Shown piece by piece: positions 1,577 through 40,790 of a DNA stretch of 64,000 nt. Location of the stretch: positions 62,001 through 126,000 of the forward strand of contig NZ_JAUDEA010000006.1 in NCBI RefSeq assembly GCF_030372065.1, written 5' to 3'. This DNA is from Thermophilibacter provencensis (lineage in GTDB: Bacteria > Actinomycetota > Coriobacteriia > Coriobacteriales > Atopobiaceae). Numbering within the stretch: the stretch's first letter is position 1; each line of letters begins with the position of its first letter. The position numbers and the translations under genes are program-made. The notes under the pieces were generated by a model. The model was given only the letters and a program-made list of their open reading frames with translations. It ran no database searches and was not told the DNA's origin.

Positions 1577-4507
1577 ATGACCAAGAAGAACCGCTTTGCC
1601 ACCCCCAATCCCGCCCTTGCCGTGGGCACCGCCCACGCGGGCTTCACCGTCACGCGCGTCGAGGCCGTCCGCGAGATCTCCGGCACCGCCTACCTCATGC
1701 GCCACGATGCCACGGGCGCGCGCATGCTGTGGCTTGCCTGCGCTGACACCAACCGCTCCTTCTCCATCGCGTTCAAGACGCCACCGGTGGACGACACGGG
1801 CGTCTTTCACATCCTCGAGCACTCGGTGCTGTGCGGCTCCGACCGCTACCCGGTGAAGGAGCCCTTTGTCAACCTGCTCAAGACGAGCATGCAGACCTTC
1901 CTCAACGCCATGACCTTCCCCGACAAGACCATGTACCCCGTGGCCTCCACCAATGTGGCCGACCTCGAGAACCTCATGGGCGTGTACCTTGACGCGGTCC
2001 TGCACCCGGCGATCTATCACCGCCCGCGCATCTTTGAGCAGGAGGGCTGGCACCTCGAGGCGGACGAGTCGGGCGCGCTCTCCTACAACGGCGTGGTCTT
2101 CAACGAGATGAAGGGCGCGCTCTCCGACCCTGAGGACCGCCTCTACCAGGAGGTCTGTCGCCAGCTCTTCCCCGACACCGCCTACGGGCACGAGTCCGGC
2201 GGCAACCCGCGCGCCATCCCGAGCCTCACCTACGAGGCCTTCCTCGACACCCATGCGCACCACTACGCGCTCGCCAACAGCTACACCATCCTCTACGGCG
2301 ACCTCAACATAGACCGCGAGCTCGCCCTCATCGACGAGCGCTTCCGCGAGGCCACCGCACACGAGGCCGGCGCCCCCAACCCGCTCGCCCTCCAGGCGCC
2401 CGTCCGCGCCCCGCGCGTCACGATCGAGATGGCAACGGCGCCGAGCAACTCGTCGATCGCCCTCTCCTACGTTCTGGGCACCGCGGCGGACCGCGCGCGC
2501 GTGCTCGCCGTGGACGTGCTGCTCGACGCCCTCTGCGGCTCCAACGAGGCCCCGCTCAAGCGCGCCGTTCTCGACGCGGGCATCGCTGACGACTTCTCGG
2601 CCATGCTCGTCGACGGGGTGCTCCAGCCCCAGGCGCTCCTGATGCTCCGCGGCCTCAGGCCGGGCGCGGGCGAGAAGTTCCGTTCACTCGTTGAGTCCAC
2701 CTGCGCCGAGCTCGCCGAGGGCGGCATCCCGCGCGACAAGCTCGAGGCGTCGCTCGCCCAGGCAGAGTTCAACCTGCGCGAGGGCGACTTCGGCGGCTAC
2801 CCGGACGGCATCGCGCTCTCCATAGCCGCCATGTCGAGCTGGCTCTACGACGACGAGCGCCCCCTCGACTACCTGCGCTACGAGGACGCGCTCGCCGAGC
2901 TCAAGCGCGGGCTTGACGACGGCCTCTTCGAGCGGCTGCTGCGCGAGCTCGTCTGCGAGAGCGCGCACAGCGCCGAGGTCGAGCTCGTCCCCTCCGAGAC
3001 GGGTGACGCCGCAGAGGAGGCGGCCGAGCTCGAGCGCCTGCGCGCGGGCATGAGCGAGAAGGACGTGGAGGCCGTTCGTGCGGAGGTAGCCGCGCTGCGC
3101 GCCGAGCAGGAGGCGCCGGACTCGCCCGAGGCCCTCGCCGCGCTGCCGCGCCTTGGCATCGCCGACGTGGAGCCGCCCGCGCCCGAGCCCGAGGCGCTCG
3201 AGGCGGAGGCGCCGCTGCCCTGCACGGCGCATGAGCTGGACACCCACGGCATCGCCTACGTCTACCACTACTTTGATCTGCGCCGCCTTGAGTTCTCGGA
3301 CCTCCCCTACGTGGGGCTCCTGAGCGACCTTCTGGGCAAGCTGGACACGGAGCTCCACCCCGCCTCCGACCTCGACACCCTCGTCGAGACCAACCTCGGC
3401 GGGCTCGACTTCTTCACGGAGACCTACGCGCGCGACGAGGACCTCGCCTATGCCGCGCCCGCGCTCGTCGTTGGCGCCTCGGCCCTCAGCGAGAAGGTCG
3501 ACGCGCTCGCCACGCTGCCCGCCGAGGTGTGGGGCAAGACCCGCTTCGACGACCTCGCCCGCATGCGCGACATCCTCACGCAGCGCAGGGTCGCCCTCGA
3601 GCAGTACTTTGTGAGCTCGGGTCACACGGCCGCCGCGGCGCGCGCCAACGCGTACTTCTCGTCCGCCGCCGTGGCCTCGAGCGCGATGGCGGGGCTCGAG
3701 TACTATCTCTTCCTGCGCGATCTTCTCGGCAACTGGGAGGAGCGCTCGACCGAGCTGCCCGCGCGCCTCTCCGAGCTTGCGGCGCGCGTCTTCACGGCCG
3801 ACGATGTGCTGGTGAGCTTCACCGGCTCCCCGGATGACCGCGAGCGCTTCTGGGCCGCGGGCGGCACGCTCGCTCTACCCGTCACCGGGGGCGCCGAGCA
3901 CCGCCTCTCGGTCCCCACGCCCAGCCCGAGAAACGAGGCCTTCGTCATCCCCTCGGACGTGTGCTACGTCGTGCGCGCCAGCGGCCGCAGCGGGCGTGAC
4001 GCGGGCACCATCGGGTGCTGGCAGGTCGCCACGCGCCCGCTCTCCTATGACTATCTGTGGAACGAGGTGCGCGTGAAGGGTGGCGCCTATGGCTGCGGCT
4101 TCAGGCGCACGAGCGAGCGGCTGAGCGCGTTCTGGAGCTTCCGCGACCCCTCCATTGACGCCACGCTCGCGCGCTACGACGGCGCCGCCGCGTGGCTGGC
4201 AGCGTGGGACGGCACGGACGAGGAGCTCGAGGGCTACGTCGTGGCCACCGTGGCCTCCCACGACGCGCCCGTCAAGCCCCGCCAGATGGCGCGGCGCCAG
4301 GACGTTGCGCGCTTTGGCGGCAAGGAGCCCGGCTGGCGCGACGTCGTTCGCGCCGAGGAGCTGGCCGCCACGGCCGATAACGTGCGCGCGCTCGCGACGG
4401 TTCTCGCCGACGAGAGCGTCCCGCGCGGCATCTGCGTCTTTGGCGGGCGCGACGCCATCGAGGCGAGCACCGTGCCCTTTGACGCGGTGGTCGAGCTCGT
4501 GCGCTAG
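1577..4507 (+). CDS. PreP-like M16C metallopeptidase (insulinase family)
   Basis: A 976-residue protein of the size of M16C presequence proteases. The inverted zinc motif HxxEH is seen as HILEH at about residues 78-82, followed by SVLCGSDRYPVKEPF, a hallmark of PreP/Cym1-type enzymes. The distal Glu ligand region NGVVFNEMKGA lies about 95 residues later. The C-terminal half carries the second M16 pair, including the R/Y region around WNEVRVKGGAYG. These enzymes enclose and cut unstructured peptides, so a role in intracellular peptide turnover is likely. No signal peptide is seen. GGAGG sits 5 nt before the ATG. The gene ends at an 18-bp palindrome before a convergent gene. Confidence 0.93.
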   Translation: MTKKNRFATPNPALAVGTAHAGFTVTRVEAVREISGTAYLMRHDATGARMLWLACADTNRSFSIAFKTPPVDDTGVFHILEHSVLCGSDRYPVKEPFVNLLKTSMQTFLNAMTFPDKTMYPVASTNVADLENLMGVYLDAVLHPAIYHRPRIFEQEGWHLEADESGALSYNGVVFNEMKGALSDPEDRLYQEVCRQLFPDTAYGHESGGNPRAIPSLTYEAFLDTHAHHYALANSYTILYGDLNIDRELALIDERFREATAHEAGAPNPLALQAPVRAPRVTIEMATAPSNSSIALSYVLGTAADRARVLAVDVLLDALCGSNEAPLKRAVLDAGIADDFSAMLVDGVLQPQALLMLRGLRPGAGEKFRSLVESTCAELAEGGIPRDKLEASLAQAEFNLREGDFGGYPDGIALSIAAMSSWLYDDERPLDYLRYEDALAELKRGLDDGLFERLLRELVCESAHSAEVELVPSETGDAAEEAAELERLRAGMSEKDVEAVRAEVAALRAEQEAPDSPEALAALPRLGIADVEPPAPEPEALEAEAPLPCTAHELDTHGIAYVYHYFDLRRLEFSDLPYVGLLSDLLGKLDTELHPASDLDTLVETNLGGLDFFTETYARDEDLAYAAPALVVGASALSEKVDALATLPAEVWGKTRFDDLARMRDILTQRRVALEQYFVSSGHTAAAARANAYFSSAAVASSAMAGLEYYLFLRDLLGNWEERSTELPARLSELAARVFTADDVLVSFTGSPDDRERFWAAGGTLALPVTGGAEHRLSVPTPSPRNEAFVIPSDVCYVVRASGRSGRDAGTIGCWQVATRPLSYDYLWNEVRVKGGAYGCGFRRTSERLSAFWSFRDPSIDATLARYDGAAAWLAAWDGTDEELEGYVVATVASHDAPVKPRQMARRQDVARFGGKEPGWRDVVRAEELAATADNVRALATVLADESVPRGICVFGGRDAIEASTVPFDAVVELVR

Positions 4508-4519
4508 ACCTGCCCATGC

Positions 4520-4558
4520 CCCGTGTCCACCTTGTACTGGGTACAAGGTGGACACGGG
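4520..4558. terminator. Palindrome between convergent genes
   Basis: 18-bp perfect arms (4520-4537 and 4541-4558) with a 3-nt loop lie between the convergent M16 and nitroreductase genes. There is no T-run on either side, so it is a probable bidirectional terminator or a repeat. Its core TGTCCACCTTGTAC resembles the palindrome at 5186-5216. Confidence 0.6.
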
Positions 4559-4565
4559 ATGCGCG

Positions 4566-5144
4566 CTAGACGAGAAGATCCTCGAGCCGCAGCTTGGGCA
4601 CGCAGTGGGTCCCGTCCGGCTCGCGCCAGTACGTGAGGCCGTGCTCGGTGTCCGGCCCCTCGAGGACCACCCGCTCGCCGTGGCCGCCTATAGCGAGCAC
4701 GAGCGCGGGCACCAGACCGTCGGGAAGGTCGAGCTCGTCGGCAAGGCCGGCATCAAAGCTGCGCAGCATGCAGCACCCCAGCCCGCGCGCCGCGGCGGCA
4801 AGTGCCATCGTCTGGGCGGCAATGCCCACGTCGATGAGGCGGATCGCGTTTCCCTTAAGGCCCTCCGGCACGCAGATCACCACGTAGCCGTGCGGGCGCT
4901 CGCCCTCGGCGGGACCGTCCCAGTCCTTGTAGAGGGCGGCCCAGCGCAGGTGAGGGAAGACCGCGTCGCACGCGTCCTTCTCGCCCACCACGCGAAAGCG
5001 CAGCACCTGCATGTTGTTGCCGCAGGGGGCAAGCCGCGCCGCGTCAACGAGGCCGGTGAGGACCGTCGAGCCCACGCGCTGGTCGCTGAAGCGACGATAC
5101 GTCCTGGAGGACGCCACCAGATCCTGGAACTCAAGAGCGTTCAT
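4566..5144 (-). CDS. Nitroreductase-family flavoprotein
   Basis: 192 residues, the normal size for FMN-dependent nitroreductases. The N-terminal SSRTYRRFSDQ followed by APCGNNMQVLRF is the FMN phosphate-binding region of the family, and GIAAQTMALAAAARGLGCCML is the helix usually matching the second FMN-contact motif. The reaction is probably NAD(P)H-dependent reduction of an unknown substrate. The ATG at 5144 follows AGGGGAG at good spacing; the longer upstream frame runs into a palindrome. The gene is co-oriented with and 76 nt downstream of the aminotransferase gene, so the two could share a transcript, but a palindrome lies between them. Confidence 0.88.
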   Translation of the reverse strand: MNALEFQDLVASSRTYRRFSDQRVGSTVLTGLVDAARLAPCGNNMQVLRFRVVGEKDACDAVFPHLRWAALYKDWDGPAEGERPHGYVVICVPEGLKGNAIRLIDVGIAAQTMALAAAARGLGCCMLRSFDAGLADELDLPDGLVPALVLAIGGHGERVVLEGPDTEHGLTYWREPDGTHCVPKLRLEDLLV

Positions 5145-5185
5145 GAGTCTCCCCTTCTCCACGTGTCCAGAGCGAACCCGGCACA

Positions 5186-33671: not shown

Positions 33672-33889
33672 GCGGCGGAATTGACAGACCGTTTCCTTAT
33701 CTGTCCACTGTGATTAGATTTTTGCAGCGCGGGCAGCTCCTCTGTGCACGTGTACTTCAATCATATACAGTCACAGTGCCATAGATTAACTGGTTCAATG
33801 GTTGGTTTTTTCAGGTAACTGGCATCCAAAATCGGACATATACCCCCAGGTCTATTATTCACACCTGTCAGCAACCTGAAGGAACCAGC
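33672..33889. other. AT-rich upstream region of the radical SAM locus
   Basis: 218 bp, clearly less GC-rich than its surroundings. It contains an 8-bp inverted repeat CACTGTGA (33706-33713) / TCACAGTG (33771-33778) and a TATTAT (33853-33858) 32 nt before the radical SAM start that could be a -10. No -35 is convincing. It is the probable promoter/operator region of the downstream operon. Confidence 0.45.
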
Positions 33890-35131
33890 ATGAGACTTTC
33901 TAGCAGCACGCGGCTCTTCTCGCTCTCTGGCATACCCATGGTCGGAAACGTTGTGACGGGCGCAATCATCGGACTCACCGTCTCAGGAAGCGCCCTCTGC
34001 CACAAAATGGCAGAGGGCGACGTCAGCGAGGACGAGGTCCCCGAGGACTGCGCGGAGCTCGTCGAGCATCTCCGCGCAGGTGCCTACCTCAAGGGCGCGC
34101 CTCTCCCCCAGCCACGCGTCACCAGCGCCTACCTGCACGTCACCCAGCGCTGCAACCTCGCCTGCCGATTCTGCTACTCGGAGGACGCTGGGAGAAACGC
34201 GCTCGCGGACCCAAGCCTTGATGACCTCATCCGCGCCATCAATCTTCTTACATCCCTTGGCGTCACGCGACTCGTCATATCTGGAGGCGAGCCCTTTCTG
34301 CGCCCCGACCTTCCCCACATTGCGGAGCACGCCAAGCGCTCCGGCGTGGAGGAGCTCATTGTTCTCACCAACGGGCTGCTCGTCACCAGGGAGCGCGTTG
34401 AGCCGCTCGTGGGAACTGTGGACTGTGTGGCGGTTGCCTTTGACGGGGCCTCCGCATCCGACCCCGCCCACCTTCGCGGAGAGCAGAGGTTCGACCTCCT
34501 CGTCTGCGCCGTCGAGACGGTCCGCTCGCTGGGCATCGGGGTACGGGTGCTGCCGACCCTCCACGCGAGAAACCTCTCGGACATGAACCGCTATCAGGAC
34601 CTTGCCGATCGGCTGGGCGCAACCCTCGGCTTTAGCCTGCTCACCGGAAACGTCTGCGAGCTGGGAGATCTCTCGCCAACCGACGATCAGCTCAGGGAGA
34701 TGGGCAGGAGGGCACGTGAGCTCGCCGGTTCCGGGAGCGACCCCCTTACGGAGAGGGGCTCGTCTTTTGCCGCCCGCCGGTCATGCGGCGCGGGCGTCCG
34801 AACGCTCAGCGTTGCCGCGGATGGCACGGTGTACCCCTGCCACATGCTGCACGACCAACGGCTCGCGATGGGAAGCGCGTTTTCCGACACTCCCGAGAAG
34901 ATCATGGGCGGCCCCGTGGCGCAGCGTCTCAGGTGCCTGGACGTTGCGGAAATCGACGGCTGCGCCGCCTGCGACGCGCGTTACCTCTGCGGCGGCGGGT
35001 GCCGGGCACGCGCGCTCATGTCCGCGGGGAGCCTCACCGCCGCCGACCCCTACTGTGAGCTCCCGCGCTCGCACTACGAGCATATCGGCGAGCGGCTTGC
35101 CAGCGGGTTCGCGCCGAGGGGAGGTGGATGA
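33890..35131 (+). CDS. Radical SAM/SPASM peptide maturase with PqqD-like N-terminal domain
   Basis: 413 residues. Residues 1-70 resemble a PqqD/RRE leader-binding wing (VGNVVTGAIIGLTVSGSALCHKM ... CAELVEHLRAGAYL). The radical SAM core starts near residue 83 with the motif CNLACRFCY (CX3CX2C), then VISGGEPFLRPDL (GGE motif). The C-terminal SPASM domain has CGAGVRTLSVAADGTVYPCHM and CAACDARYLCGGGCRARAL, Cys patterns that bind auxiliary 4Fe-4S clusters. Such enzymes crosslink or epimerise residues in ribosomally made peptides. The only candidate substrate is the 22-codon gene starting 1 nt after its stop. GAAGGAA precedes the ATG. Confidence 0.92.
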   Translation: MRLSSSTRLFSLSGIPMVGNVVTGAIIGLTVSGSALCHKMAEGDVSEDEVPEDCAELVEHLRAGAYLKGAPLPQPRVTSAYLHVTQRCNLACRFCYSEDAGRNALADPSLDDLIRAINLLTSLGVTRLVISGGEPFLRPDLPHIAEHAKRSGVEELIVLTNGLLVTRERVEPLVGTVDCVAVAFDGASASDPAHLRGEQRFDLLVCAVETVRSLGIGVRVLPTLHARNLSDMNRYQDLADRLGATLGFSLLTGNVCELGDLSPTDDQLREMGRRARELAGSGSDPLTERGSSFAARRSCGAGVRTLSVAADGTVYPCHMLHDQRLAMGSAFSDTPEKIMGGPVAQRLRCLDVAEIDGCAACDARYLCGGGCRARALMSAGSLTAADPYCELPRSHYEHIGERLASGFAPRGGG

Positions 35132-35132
35132 C

Positions 35133-35201
35133 ATGCTGTTTGACACTGCGGAGCGGGCAACGGTCTGCGTTGAGATCTTCGGCATCATCATCGGCACGTA
35201 G
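35133..35201 (+). CDS. Candidate RiPP precursor peptide, 22 residues
   Basis: A 23-codon frame starts 1 nt after the maturase stop, with GGGGAGGTGG 6-8 nt before its ATG. The peptide begins MLFDTAERA and ends TVCVEIFGIIIGT: an acidic/polar N-terminal half and a hydrophobic C-terminal half with one Cys (position 12) and three consecutive Ile. This is the layout of a minimal leader plus core. Its position between a radical SAM/SPASM gene with a leader-binding domain and a membrane protein, with its own ribosome-binding site, supports translation. It is shorter than most annotation cut-offs. The modification cannot be predicted; Cys-to-alpha-carbon (sactionine) or C-C bonds are possible. Confidence 0.72.
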   Translation: MLFDTAERATVCVEIFGIIIGT

Positions 35202-35215
35202 TAAGGAGTCATCCC

Positions 35216-35710
35216 ATGCCAGAGGAAGTCAGGAGCACATATCAGACAGCGAGAAGGTCGGCGACCATCGGGGCGGTCGCGATGGGGGTGGTCGGGGCGC
35301 TGCAGCTCCTCGTCCTCGTCACGTGCCTCGCAGCGGTCTTTGGCGACGTGGGCCCCTCGCTCATGGGGACGCCGCGCGGGTGGACGCTTCTTGCCTCCAT
35401 CGCCACGACGCTCGCCTCCACCGTCCTTCTCGGGCGCTTCTTCTGGTTCTTTGGGAGGGACAGGTCCCCGTTTGGAACGAGGCAGTCGCTGAGGCTGCTC
35501 GTTGCCGCGGGGCTCTACCTGGCGAGGGTGGGCGTTGACGCGCTCATGCCCGCCCTCGCCTCCGTCGAGCTTGCCGGAGGGGCAATCTCCATCACGCAGC
35601 AACCGGGAATTGACCTCAAGACAGTTGCGGTTGTCGTTTTTCTCGGCTGTCTTGCGATGGTTATGCGCTATGGGGACGCTCTCAAGGAGGATTCGGACAG
35701 TATCGCGTAG
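35216..35710 (+). CDS. Four-helix membrane protein, DUF2975-like
   Basis: 164 residues with four hydrophobic segments (about 20-42, 55-80, 92-112, 132-150), no signal peptide and a charged tail (RYGDALKEDSDSIA). The size, topology and the immediately following YozG-type gene match the DUF2975 family, whose members are normally paired with such a regulator. The role is unknown; here, next to a peptide maturase, it might export, sense or be protected from the mature peptide (inference). AAGGAG precedes the ATG, which lies 14 nt after the peptide stop. Confidence 0.75.
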   Translation: MPEEVRSTYQTARRSATIGAVAMGVVGALQLLVLVTCLAAVFGDVGPSLMGTPRGWTLLASIATTLASTVLLGRFFWFFGRDRSPFGTRQSLRLLVAAGLYLARVGVDALMPALASVELAGGAISITQQPGIDLKTVAVVVFLGCLAMVMRYGDALKEDSDSIA

Positions 35711-35749
35711 AATGGGTGCAACATACACCGCTTTCCAGGGAGGTACAAG

Positions 35750-36031
35750 GTGCCCATCGTTATGCGACTCGACCGAGTCATGGCAGAGAAGAAGATTTCC
35801 TCGACGGAGCTTGCCGCTCGTATCGGCACCTCCACGGTCAACCTCTCCAACATCAAGAACGGCCACATCCGTGGGGTCCGCTTCTCCACGCTCGAGGCCC
35901 TCTGCCAGGTCCTCAACTGCAAGCCCGGAGACCTGATCGACTACGTGTCCCCCGAGGACCTCGCGCAGGAGCGCGCCCTCGGAGAGATCACGGAGCGCAG
36001 CTACCCGCGCCGCGGCGAGAAGAACGCCTAG
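35750..36031 (+). CDS. YozG-like small XRE/Cro transcriptional regulator
   Basis: 93 residues. A compact helix-turn-helix (MRLDRVMAEKKISSTELAARIGTSTVNLSNIKNGHIRGVRFSTLEALCQVLNCKPGDLIDYV) of the YozG type, usually found next to DUF2975 membrane proteins. The GTG at 35750 has AGGGAGGT 7 nt upstream. It likely represses its own operon. Its stop overlaps the stop of the convergent nudC by 3 nt, leaving no room for a terminator. Confidence 0.9.
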   Translation: MPIVMRLDRVMAEKKISSTELAARIGTSTVNLSNIKNGHIRGVRFSTLEALCQVLNCKPGDLIDYVSPEDLAQERALGEITERSYPRRGEKNA

Positions 36032-40007: not shown

Positions 40008-40790
40008 TCAGTCGTTGCCCTGCGCTTCTCGCTCCCGGCGAAGCACGTAGGCAATTGTCCCCCTCCCCACCCCCGTCATGCGCTCGATGCGCCGTATGGA
40101 AAAGCCCAGTTTGCTCAGCACCACGATGGCCTTGTTCCTCCTGGGCTTGGAGAGTCCCTTGACGTCACCGGGAGCGCAGAGGCCTGCGGCGAGAAGGGCA
40201 TCTGTGGCAATTGTCAGCGCGTCGTCCTCATCCAACAGCTCGCAGCGCGGGACATACGCATAGGCATCATCCGGCTGACGAATCAGCCTGGCAAATCCTT
40301 CCGTCCCCTGAAGCATGTCCAGCACGATATCGGTTCTCGTGAGCTGAGCCGTCTTGTTTCCAACGTATTCGGAATAGCTGCTCCACCGGTACTTCTCGGC
40401 AGCACAGAGCCCGCCCTTTTCAGGGTTGAGGTGAACGTACCTCACGGCAGCAAGCAGTTGTCGATCGCTTTCGATCGTCTCGCTGAAAAAGCGCTCCTGA
40501 AAGACGTGCCCCACATGACCGGTACGCGCGTTAAATCGGTTTGCATAACGGGTCAGAAGCGTGCGCATGACATCGCTGAGCCTGCCGTCCGGGTCCAGCA
40601 GAACAATGTGCACGTGGTTCTCCATGAGGCACCAGGCAATGACGCTCACCCCCTCTGAGTGCGTACACTCCCGGAGCAGCCTTACAAACGCAGCGCGATC
40701 TTCGTCGCTTTCAAAGATGATCTGCTTGCCGTTGCCTCGCGTCACAACGTGGTAAAACCCCGATTCGGCAACCCTGCGGGCAGCCCTCAT
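40008..40790 (-). CDS. RAYT: REP-associated Y1 (HUH) transposase with C-terminal helix-turn-helix
   Basis: 260 residues. GFYHVVTRGNGKQIIFESDED opens the Y1 domain; CLMENHVHIVLLDPDG carries the HUH metal-binding motif (HVH); FQERFFSETIESDRQLLAAVRYVHLNPEKGGL contains the late-domain Tyr candidates. The C-terminal LGFSIRRIERMTGVGRGTIAYVLRRERE is a helix-turn-helix tail as in TnpA-REP proteins. RAYTs cut and move REP hairpins rather than themselves. The gene is flanked by 27-nt REP-like elements on both sides. AGGAGAGGAG precedes the ATG. Confidence 0.92.
   Translation of the reverse strand: MRAARRVAESGFYHVVTRGNGKQIIFESDEDRAAFVRLLRECTHSEGVSVIAWCLMENHVHIVLLDPDGRLSDVMRTLLTRYANRFNARTGHVGHVFQERFFSETIESDRQLLAAVRYVHLNPEKGGLCAAEKYRWSSYSEYVGNKTAQLTRTDIVLDMLQGTEGFARLIRQPDDAYAYVPRCELLDEDDALTIATDALLAAGLCAPGDVKGLSKPRRNKAIVVLSKLGFSIRRIERMTGVGRGTIAYVLRREREAQGND

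Follow-up and report, generated by a model that had tools for sequence, protein, structure and literature searches.

The four-gene cassette

We analysed a stretch of 64,000 nts of the Thermophilibacter provencensis genome (contig NZ_JAUDEA010000006.1, positions 62,001 to 126,000; hereafter the window), in which a radical S-adenosylmethionine (SAM)/SPASM peptide maturase is followed by a 22-codon micropeptide gene, a DUF2975-like membrane protein and a small helix-turn-helix (HTH) regulator. A preliminary description of this DNA had proposed a new locus for a ribosomally synthesized and post-translationally modified peptide (RiPP), and its gene coordinates, shared strand and tight spacing agree with what we read from the sequence. 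The features are given below, with the evidence for each in brackets.

33672..33889, +, AT-rich upstream region, presumed promoter/operator (G+C 0.468, versus 0.653 for the window)
33890..35131, +, radical SAM/SPASM peptide maturase, 413 aa (Pfam Radical_SAM and SPASM, conserved Cys, predicted model, PDB match)
33890..34078, +, N-terminal domain of the maturase, residues 1-63, RiPP recognition element (RRE)/PqqD-like by predicted fold (secondary structure of the AlphaFold2 (AF2) model)
35120..35127, +, Shine-Dalgarno site of the peptide gene, inside the maturase 3' end (sequence GGAGGTGG; similar sites in orthologues)
35133..35201, +, precursor peptide MLFDTAERATVCVEIFGIIIGT, 22 aa, with Cys12 at 35166-35168 and Gly21 at 35193-35195
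35216..35710, +, DUF2975-like membrane protein, 164 aa, four long predicted helices (alignment; model with a predicted local distance difference test score (pLDDT) of 76.9)
35666-35707, +, conserved C-terminal tail of the membrane protein, RYGDALKEDSDSIA (alignment)
35750..36031, +, small Cro/C1-type regulator, HTH_26, 93 aa, GTG start (Pfam HTH_26)

The gap between the maturase and the 22-codon gene is a single base, with the ATG at 35133 and the stop codon TAG at 35199-35201, and the ribosome-binding site that had been claimed for this gene is real. Just 8 of the 435 ATG open reading frames (ORFs) of 15-40 aa found on both strands of the window, nested starts counted apart, carry a GGAGG/AGGAG site, and the micro-ORF therefore stands beyond chance. 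The claim of an AT-rich upstream region also holds: the G+C of 33672-33889 is matched or undercut by 0.44% of the 218-nt stretches of the window.

The micropeptide family

We searched 60 genomes, the window's own included, and found a full-length maturase orthologue in 20 others at 46-92% identity, for a total of 21 loci. The preliminary description staked its proposal on the micropeptide being present beside orthologous maturases, and in 20 of the 21 loci a micro-ORF does lie at the maturase end, starting between -17 and +5 bases relative to the end of the maturase stop codon. At the 21st locus (G024) the maturase is near a contig end, and the peptide, MLFEITVSRTDCIYIGPVVIGF, precedes the membrane protein and regulator genes on another contig. 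There the maturase 3' end (L048 tail) runs into unrelated DNA and the peptide contig (L191) has different DNA upstream; the split may be due to an insertion, a rearrangement or an assembly break. All sixteen 22-residue members of this set have a Cys at position 12 and a Gly at position 21. M1, L2 and F3 are likewise invariant, as demanded by the search pattern. Position 15 is Ile in 15/16 members and position 20 in 14/16, and much of the remaining peptide is variable.

A scan of named genomes, overlapping in genomes with the first set, gave 68 maturase loci, of which four distant ones without the N-terminal region (L121, L123, L124 and L126) were dropped. Named members include Olsenella, Collinsella, Gordonibacter, Eggerthella, Adlercreutzia, Lysinibacillus, Neobacillus and Paenibacillus. 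A family micro-ORF lies by the maturase or cassette in 60 of the 64 loci kept; L066 and L078 are cut by contig ends, and L098 and L119 show none. Members of the family start with Met-Leu-Phe (MLF), continue with one or two C-x(3-4)-G units and have a Gly close to the C-terminus. The relatives' precursors have 21-38 residues and one or two motif Cys. Among the 67 precursors in the 60 loci, 52 contain C-x3-G and all 67 contain C-x3-G or C-x4-G; where there are at least two Cys, 44/46 fit C-x3-G, two to six residues, and a second C-x3-G. As a control, the peptide pattern occurs 0 times in 547,315 minus-strand bases and 0 times in 316,305 distant plus-strand bases (864 kb) of the 64 loci. An open scan of the maturase ends, in which no Leu-Phe was demanded, finds an ORF with a ribosome-binding site in 46/64 loci, 44 of them starting with MLF. 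Seven further cassettes (L193-L199) all have membrane protein and regulator matches, and four have an MLF precursor; the L195 precursor frame breaks before its Cys motif, just after position 4978, L198 has a precursor starting MLS, read by eye, and in L199 none was recognised. Ten more stretches yield an MLF precursor in nine cases, and none within the L213 stretch.

Lying between the maturase and the membrane protein gene with such tight spacing, the micro-ORF might not encode a substrate at all but serve the membrane gene as a leader for translation coupling or regulation, a suggestion that we find hardly credible. The motif is kept before the membrane protein gene when the maturase is elsewhere, after the maturase when no membrane protein gene is near, and in tandem copies (four in the Lachnospiraceae locus L097, three in L117, and two each in L113, L118 and L217), the tandem copies being what one expects of substrates rather than translation leaders. 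The third codon positions of the peptide gene also diverge most, 0.52 versus 0.36 and 0.34 at the other two.

In the maturase tree, the single-Cys form of the window is limited to one clade of 25 rows, Olsenella/Atopobiaceae and Collinsella, with support 100/99. Twenty-one of these rows have one Cys, L061 and L074 have extra Cys elsewhere in the peptide, and no precursor is visible in the other two. Another clade (100/99) consists of the 12 Bacillota rows; it is drawn inside the Coriobacterial rows, but in a tree with a midpoint root. The preliminary description did not recognise the precursor as PqqA, MftA, a SCIFF peptide, streptide or a standard sactipeptide, which is borne out: the window peptide and five representative precursors match nothing in NCBIfam, no precursor model included, and the window peptide matches nothing in Pfam or PADLOC.

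The maturase and its predicted chemistry

The maturase passes the Pfam cut-offs for Radical_SAM (67.1 bits) and SPASM (31.1 bits). It has the CX3CX2C motif at residues 88/92/95 and SPASM cysteines at 299, 317, 358, 361, 367, 371 and 389; these ten Cys and G312 are invariant in an alignment of 21 sequences, with a mean column identity of 65%. The predicted model has a pLDDT of 88.7. For the fused PqqD-like leader-binding region proposed in the preliminary description, the support comes from predicted structure. In the AF2 model residues 1-63 form three strands and two helices (E7-12, E15-20, E26-28, H31-42 and H52-63), in the order of a leader-binding RRE domain, and the Pfam PqqD domain has no match in the window maturase or seven relatives.

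The closest PDB entries are 5why and 5wgg (profile 5.1e-26, fold 2.2e-20, identity 19-21%), a SPASM enzyme like the window maturase and one whose PDB title speaks of thioether formation; we take it to be CteB, a SCIFF ranthipeptide enzyme. By analogy with such families, the window peptide is probably cross-linked through a Cys thioether. The leader-binding domain would bind the micropeptide by its conserved MLF(E) front, and the auxiliary iron-sulphur clusters would help link the conserved Cys to a carbon atom of the hydrophobic C-terminal half, closing a ring. Cys12 is the most likely site, because it is invariant and reactive, because the unit doubles with its Cys, and because the nearest solved enzyme makes thioethers. 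Each ring would cost 2 Da, with one ring in the window peptide and two in its two-Cys relatives. The candidate acceptor region comprises the invariant Gly of the last unit and the conserved Ile beside it; because G21 is kept where the second Cys is lost, a search for the acceptor would start at the terminal unit.

A maturase that epimerises Val/Ile or makes a carbon-carbon bond, leaving another role to the Cys, would fit a core rich in Val and Ile, and the streptide enzyme SuiB and the epimerase EpeE do match in Foldseek, at lower rank than 5why/5wgg. We consider this chemistry improbable given that Cys12 is invariant, that the C-x3-G unit is doubled with its Cys in relatives, and that the enzyme has the full two-cluster SPASM motif with a thioether enzyme as its best structural match.

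To place the maturase among described classes we used NCBIfam (June 2026), considering the best 25 of the 82-92 matches of each maturase (89 for the window maturase). Among the matches listed, the relative L118 exceeds the cut-off of TIGR04085, a general model of the SPASM domain (63.6 vs 27), and the StsB streptosactin maturase (NF045574) is the best match for the window maturase and three of five relatives. The relative L106 aligns with the StsB model from its residue 8, which indicates that the N-terminal domain is shared. Nevertheless, StsB, a sactipeptide model, falls short of its cut-off, with 106 bits for the window against 625 (range 106-132 with relatives), as does the sactipeptide model AlbA, with 73-88 vs 850 bits in the two relatives where it is listed. 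A sactipeptide is defined by a thioether from Cys to C-alpha. The SCIFF model TIGR03974 is not among the window's matches listed, and scores 73-74 vs 425 bits in the two relatives where it is. SCIFF precursors have six Cys in forty-five residues according to an excerpt of PMC8326336, unlike the single Cys of the window peptide and the one or two motif Cys in the 21-38 residues of its relatives. PapB, a ranthipeptide maturase (NF047865), is again a SPASM enzyme; it forms an i+4 thioether in C-x3-D/E substrates, which is near the C-x(3-4)-G unit of the window family. The PapB type was rejected at 74 bits vs 340, and residue 16, at +4 from the Cys, is Glu in 1/16 members, Gly in 6/16, and otherwise F, A, L or N.

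We also rejected PQQ biosynthesis (PqqE 88 vs 381 bits; the precursor matches nothing) and mycofactocin (maturase model 90 vs 265 bits). It is very improbable that the peptide nonetheless gives rise to a redox cofactor, as the precursors of PQQ and mycofactocin do. In its 22-residue precursor, and in Coriobacteria in having no obvious exporter, the cassette does resemble PqqA/MftA systems, and both models are among the sub-cut-off matches, to set against those same low scores, a core that is variable at most positions, the tandem copies and the ABC transporter of the Bacillota members. PqqA and MftA are characterised by a fixed Glu/Tyr pair and a C-terminal Val-Tyr, and the window family has neither.

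The maturase occurs in 67/396 genomes drawn from the window's class (E <= 1e-80), and the Bacillus maturase has no match on plasmids at E <= 1e-50. Ten distant radical SAM proteins on viral contigs (21-30% identity) were not used. A defence system suggested by the PADLOC viperin models (72 bits) was rejected, as other radical SAM families score alike, and internal TAG codons flagged in seven maturases of the class-wide draw turned out to be terminal stops. In a metagenome assembly, L120, the maturase frame is broken at about 4001-5183 and the peptide, membrane protein and regulator frames are open.

The membrane protein/regulator pair and the proposed function

The DUF2975-like name of the preliminary description is kept through a relative and not through the window protein itself. 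The latter has no match to Pfam DUF2975 (PF11188, cut-off 27); four homologues retrieved by a profile built on it differ, L109 (Lysinibacillus) scoring 35.4, L120 23.7 and L102 16.7, and L084 having no match. Foldseek gives no PDB match at E <= 0.001 for the membrane protein, and a designed coiled coil proposed as a relative by a sequence profile (8.5e-4) was disregarded, with no stretch passing. The positive-inside rule places the N-tail, the middle loop and the C-tail on the inner side. For these regions, which we assigned ourselves, the mean frequency of the top residue in 18 sequences is 0.25 for outer loop 1, 0.40 for outer loop 2 and 0.88 for the C-tail. Mean column identity is 43% for the membrane protein (20 sequences) and 80% for the regulator (15 sequences). 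The small regulator, which the preliminary description calls YozG-like, matches HTH_26 (PF13443) at 76.5 bits vs a cut-off of 22; its closest solved chain is 3tyr (2.5e-5).

The same four-gene unit, whose recurrence elsewhere the preliminary description proposed to look for, is found in other genera and also in permuted order. Seven loci (L092, L094, L095, L096, L100, L108 and L122) have the order peptide, membrane protein, regulator, maturase, and two Bacillota loci (L109 and L113) the order membrane protein, regulator, maturase, peptide, ATP-binding cassette (ABC) genes. Linkage kept through reordering indicates one functional unit. Across the 52 non-Bacillota loci, the membrane protein is present in 48, the regulator in 48 and both in 47; contig ends truncate L066, L078 and L103, the L072 contig has no regulator, and L098 has no membrane protein. 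Downstream in the Bacillota, homologues of the L109 ABC ATPase and permease are present in 11/12 loci and of its Rce1-like protease in 8/12, all three anchored by Pfam. Such transporter and protease neighbours are common for exported peptides.

The two Cys of many relatives, the Bacillota ABC transporter and the occurrence of the membrane protein/regulator pair alone go beyond the preliminary description. In the 60-genome set, the membrane protein gene is found in all 21 genomes with the maturase (the window's own included) and in 8/39 others, by a profile that was built from cassette members and favours them. Five of the eight, all of the same genus (L183-L187, in G006, G008, G010, G016 and G018), have a solitary membrane protein and regulator, flanked by the same HAD-type hydrolase and NudC genes as the window cassette. 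These five genomes have neither a maturase match at E <= 1e-3 nor a Cys-containing MLF ORF. A part in peptide production fits the solitary pairs less well than immunity or eavesdropping does. Upstream of the pair in 4/5 of these loci we observe TAACCAAT, a possible operator, in a motif chosen after looking. A distant membrane protein/regulator pair in L190 (G045) lies behind an apparent ABC ATPase and two membrane-protein genes, identified by eye, with no maturase match.

Small regulators next to membrane proteins are known from other systems. In the YozG/YoaS-type pair, as in the window, an Xre regulator (HTH_26 in the window) adjoins a DUF2975-related membrane protein; we take YoaS to be the DUF2975 protein and YozG its partner, and the likeness is one of description rather than of direct comparison. 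Unlike that pair, the one in the window is tied to a RiPP cassette. In SdpI/SdpR and YitQ/YizB, a hydrophobic toxin peptide is accompanied by a membrane immunity protein with a small regulator next to it, a functional analogy with the window for which we claim no homology. An excerpt of PMC6818787 gives these systems no radical SAM modification and describes strains in which sdpRI homologues stand alone at an sdp locus, which the genomes with a solitary pair resemble.

Building on the observed gene set, its conservation, its permuted linkage and the solitary pair, we consider it reasonably probable that the cassette makes a radical SAM/SPASM RiPP, a thioether peptide, and pairs it with a membrane immunity or sensor protein and a regulator. 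The architecture suggests that the front of the peptide may be removed and that the small hydrophobic product may leave the cell or insert into the membrane. The DUF2975-like protein, with its variable outer loops and conserved cytosolic tail, may be the immunity or sensor protein for the peptide, in keeping also with the solitary pairs. The small HTH protein may be its partner repressor, held or released via the tail, in which case the level of peptide would set the expression of the cassette.

Several observations weigh against this proposal. All characterised enzymes are only distant relatives of the maturase, and no family-level NCBIfam model reaches its cut-off for any maturase among the matches listed, which leaves the chemistry weak by homology. 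Two of the 64 loci show no precursor despite enough flanking DNA. The membrane protein and regulator occur together in 2/12 Bacillota loci and the pair is absent from the other 10/12. Of the Bacillota neighbours, the permease, the protease and the small membrane protein have homologues in 0/52 non-Bacillota loci and the ABC ATPase in 4/52, other transporters not having been sought, and in most Coriobacterial cassettes we recognised no dedicated exporter or peptidase; export is thus unexplained in the non-Bacillota loci. We searched for an operator common to all loci and found none, the upstream motifs being common to sub-clades only, such as AACTGGTT at about -102. When the maturase distance is removed, membrane protein and peptide distances have a partial r of 0.35 for the outer loops and 0.31 for the rest (each p 0.0005, by a permutation that ignores shared ancestry); this supports a joint change of peptide and membrane protein, with the outer loops barely ahead of the remaining protein. 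Finally, an excerpt of PMC2701414 gives YoaS-like membrane proteins as recurrent partners of Xre regulators and mentions there neither peptides nor a maturase, so the window pair may have another role.

The variable core in a fixed frame and the variable outer loops would equally suit a pheromone without toxicity, with the DUF2975-like protein and the HTH protein as its receptor and regulator and the solitary pairs as eavesdroppers. Clostridial relatives have a GHKL kinase (L110) or AgrB (L115) nearby, and SCIFF ranthipeptides are placed under quorum sensing in the excerpt of the review PMC8326336. The AgrB and GHKL genes may, however, serve a peptide of their own, and the ABC/Rce1 modules of the Bacillota look like immunity or export; we regard the pheromone as rather unlikely. 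It shares its chemistry with the thioether peptide proposed above and overlaps the sensor branch of that proposal, and our probabilities for the two are not meant to sum to one. The GHKL kinase and AgrB genes, assigned by Pfam, lie upstream of the maturase, together with response-regulator-like ORFs seen by eye.

We found no description of such a precursor or cassette in the open-access literature, the part of the literature that our search covered. Judged by sequence, this is a new family within the radical SAM RiPPs, falling outside the sactipeptides, SCIFFs, PapB-type ranthipeptides, PQQ and mycofactocin on the features tested. A bolder version, possible but tentative, is that of a RiPP family in Coriobacteriia and Bacillota with a new kind of thioether (for instance onto the Gly or Ile of the terminal unit), in which a DUF2975-type reader at the surface controls a YozG-type repressor via its tail. 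If true, DUF2975/YozG pairs at large, the solitary ones too, would be receptors or immunity devices for such peptides. The DUF2975-type protein with a small regulator, so far unexplained, gains a concrete candidate ligand, and the peptide family adds genes small enough for annotation to miss. The solitary pairs, permuted orders and one-Cys and two-Cys forms offer natural variation with which the chemistry and the idea of immunity or sensing can both be tested. Elsewhere in the window, on the minus strand at 40008-40790, is a 260-aa ORF that looks like a REP-associated (Y1-type) transposase.

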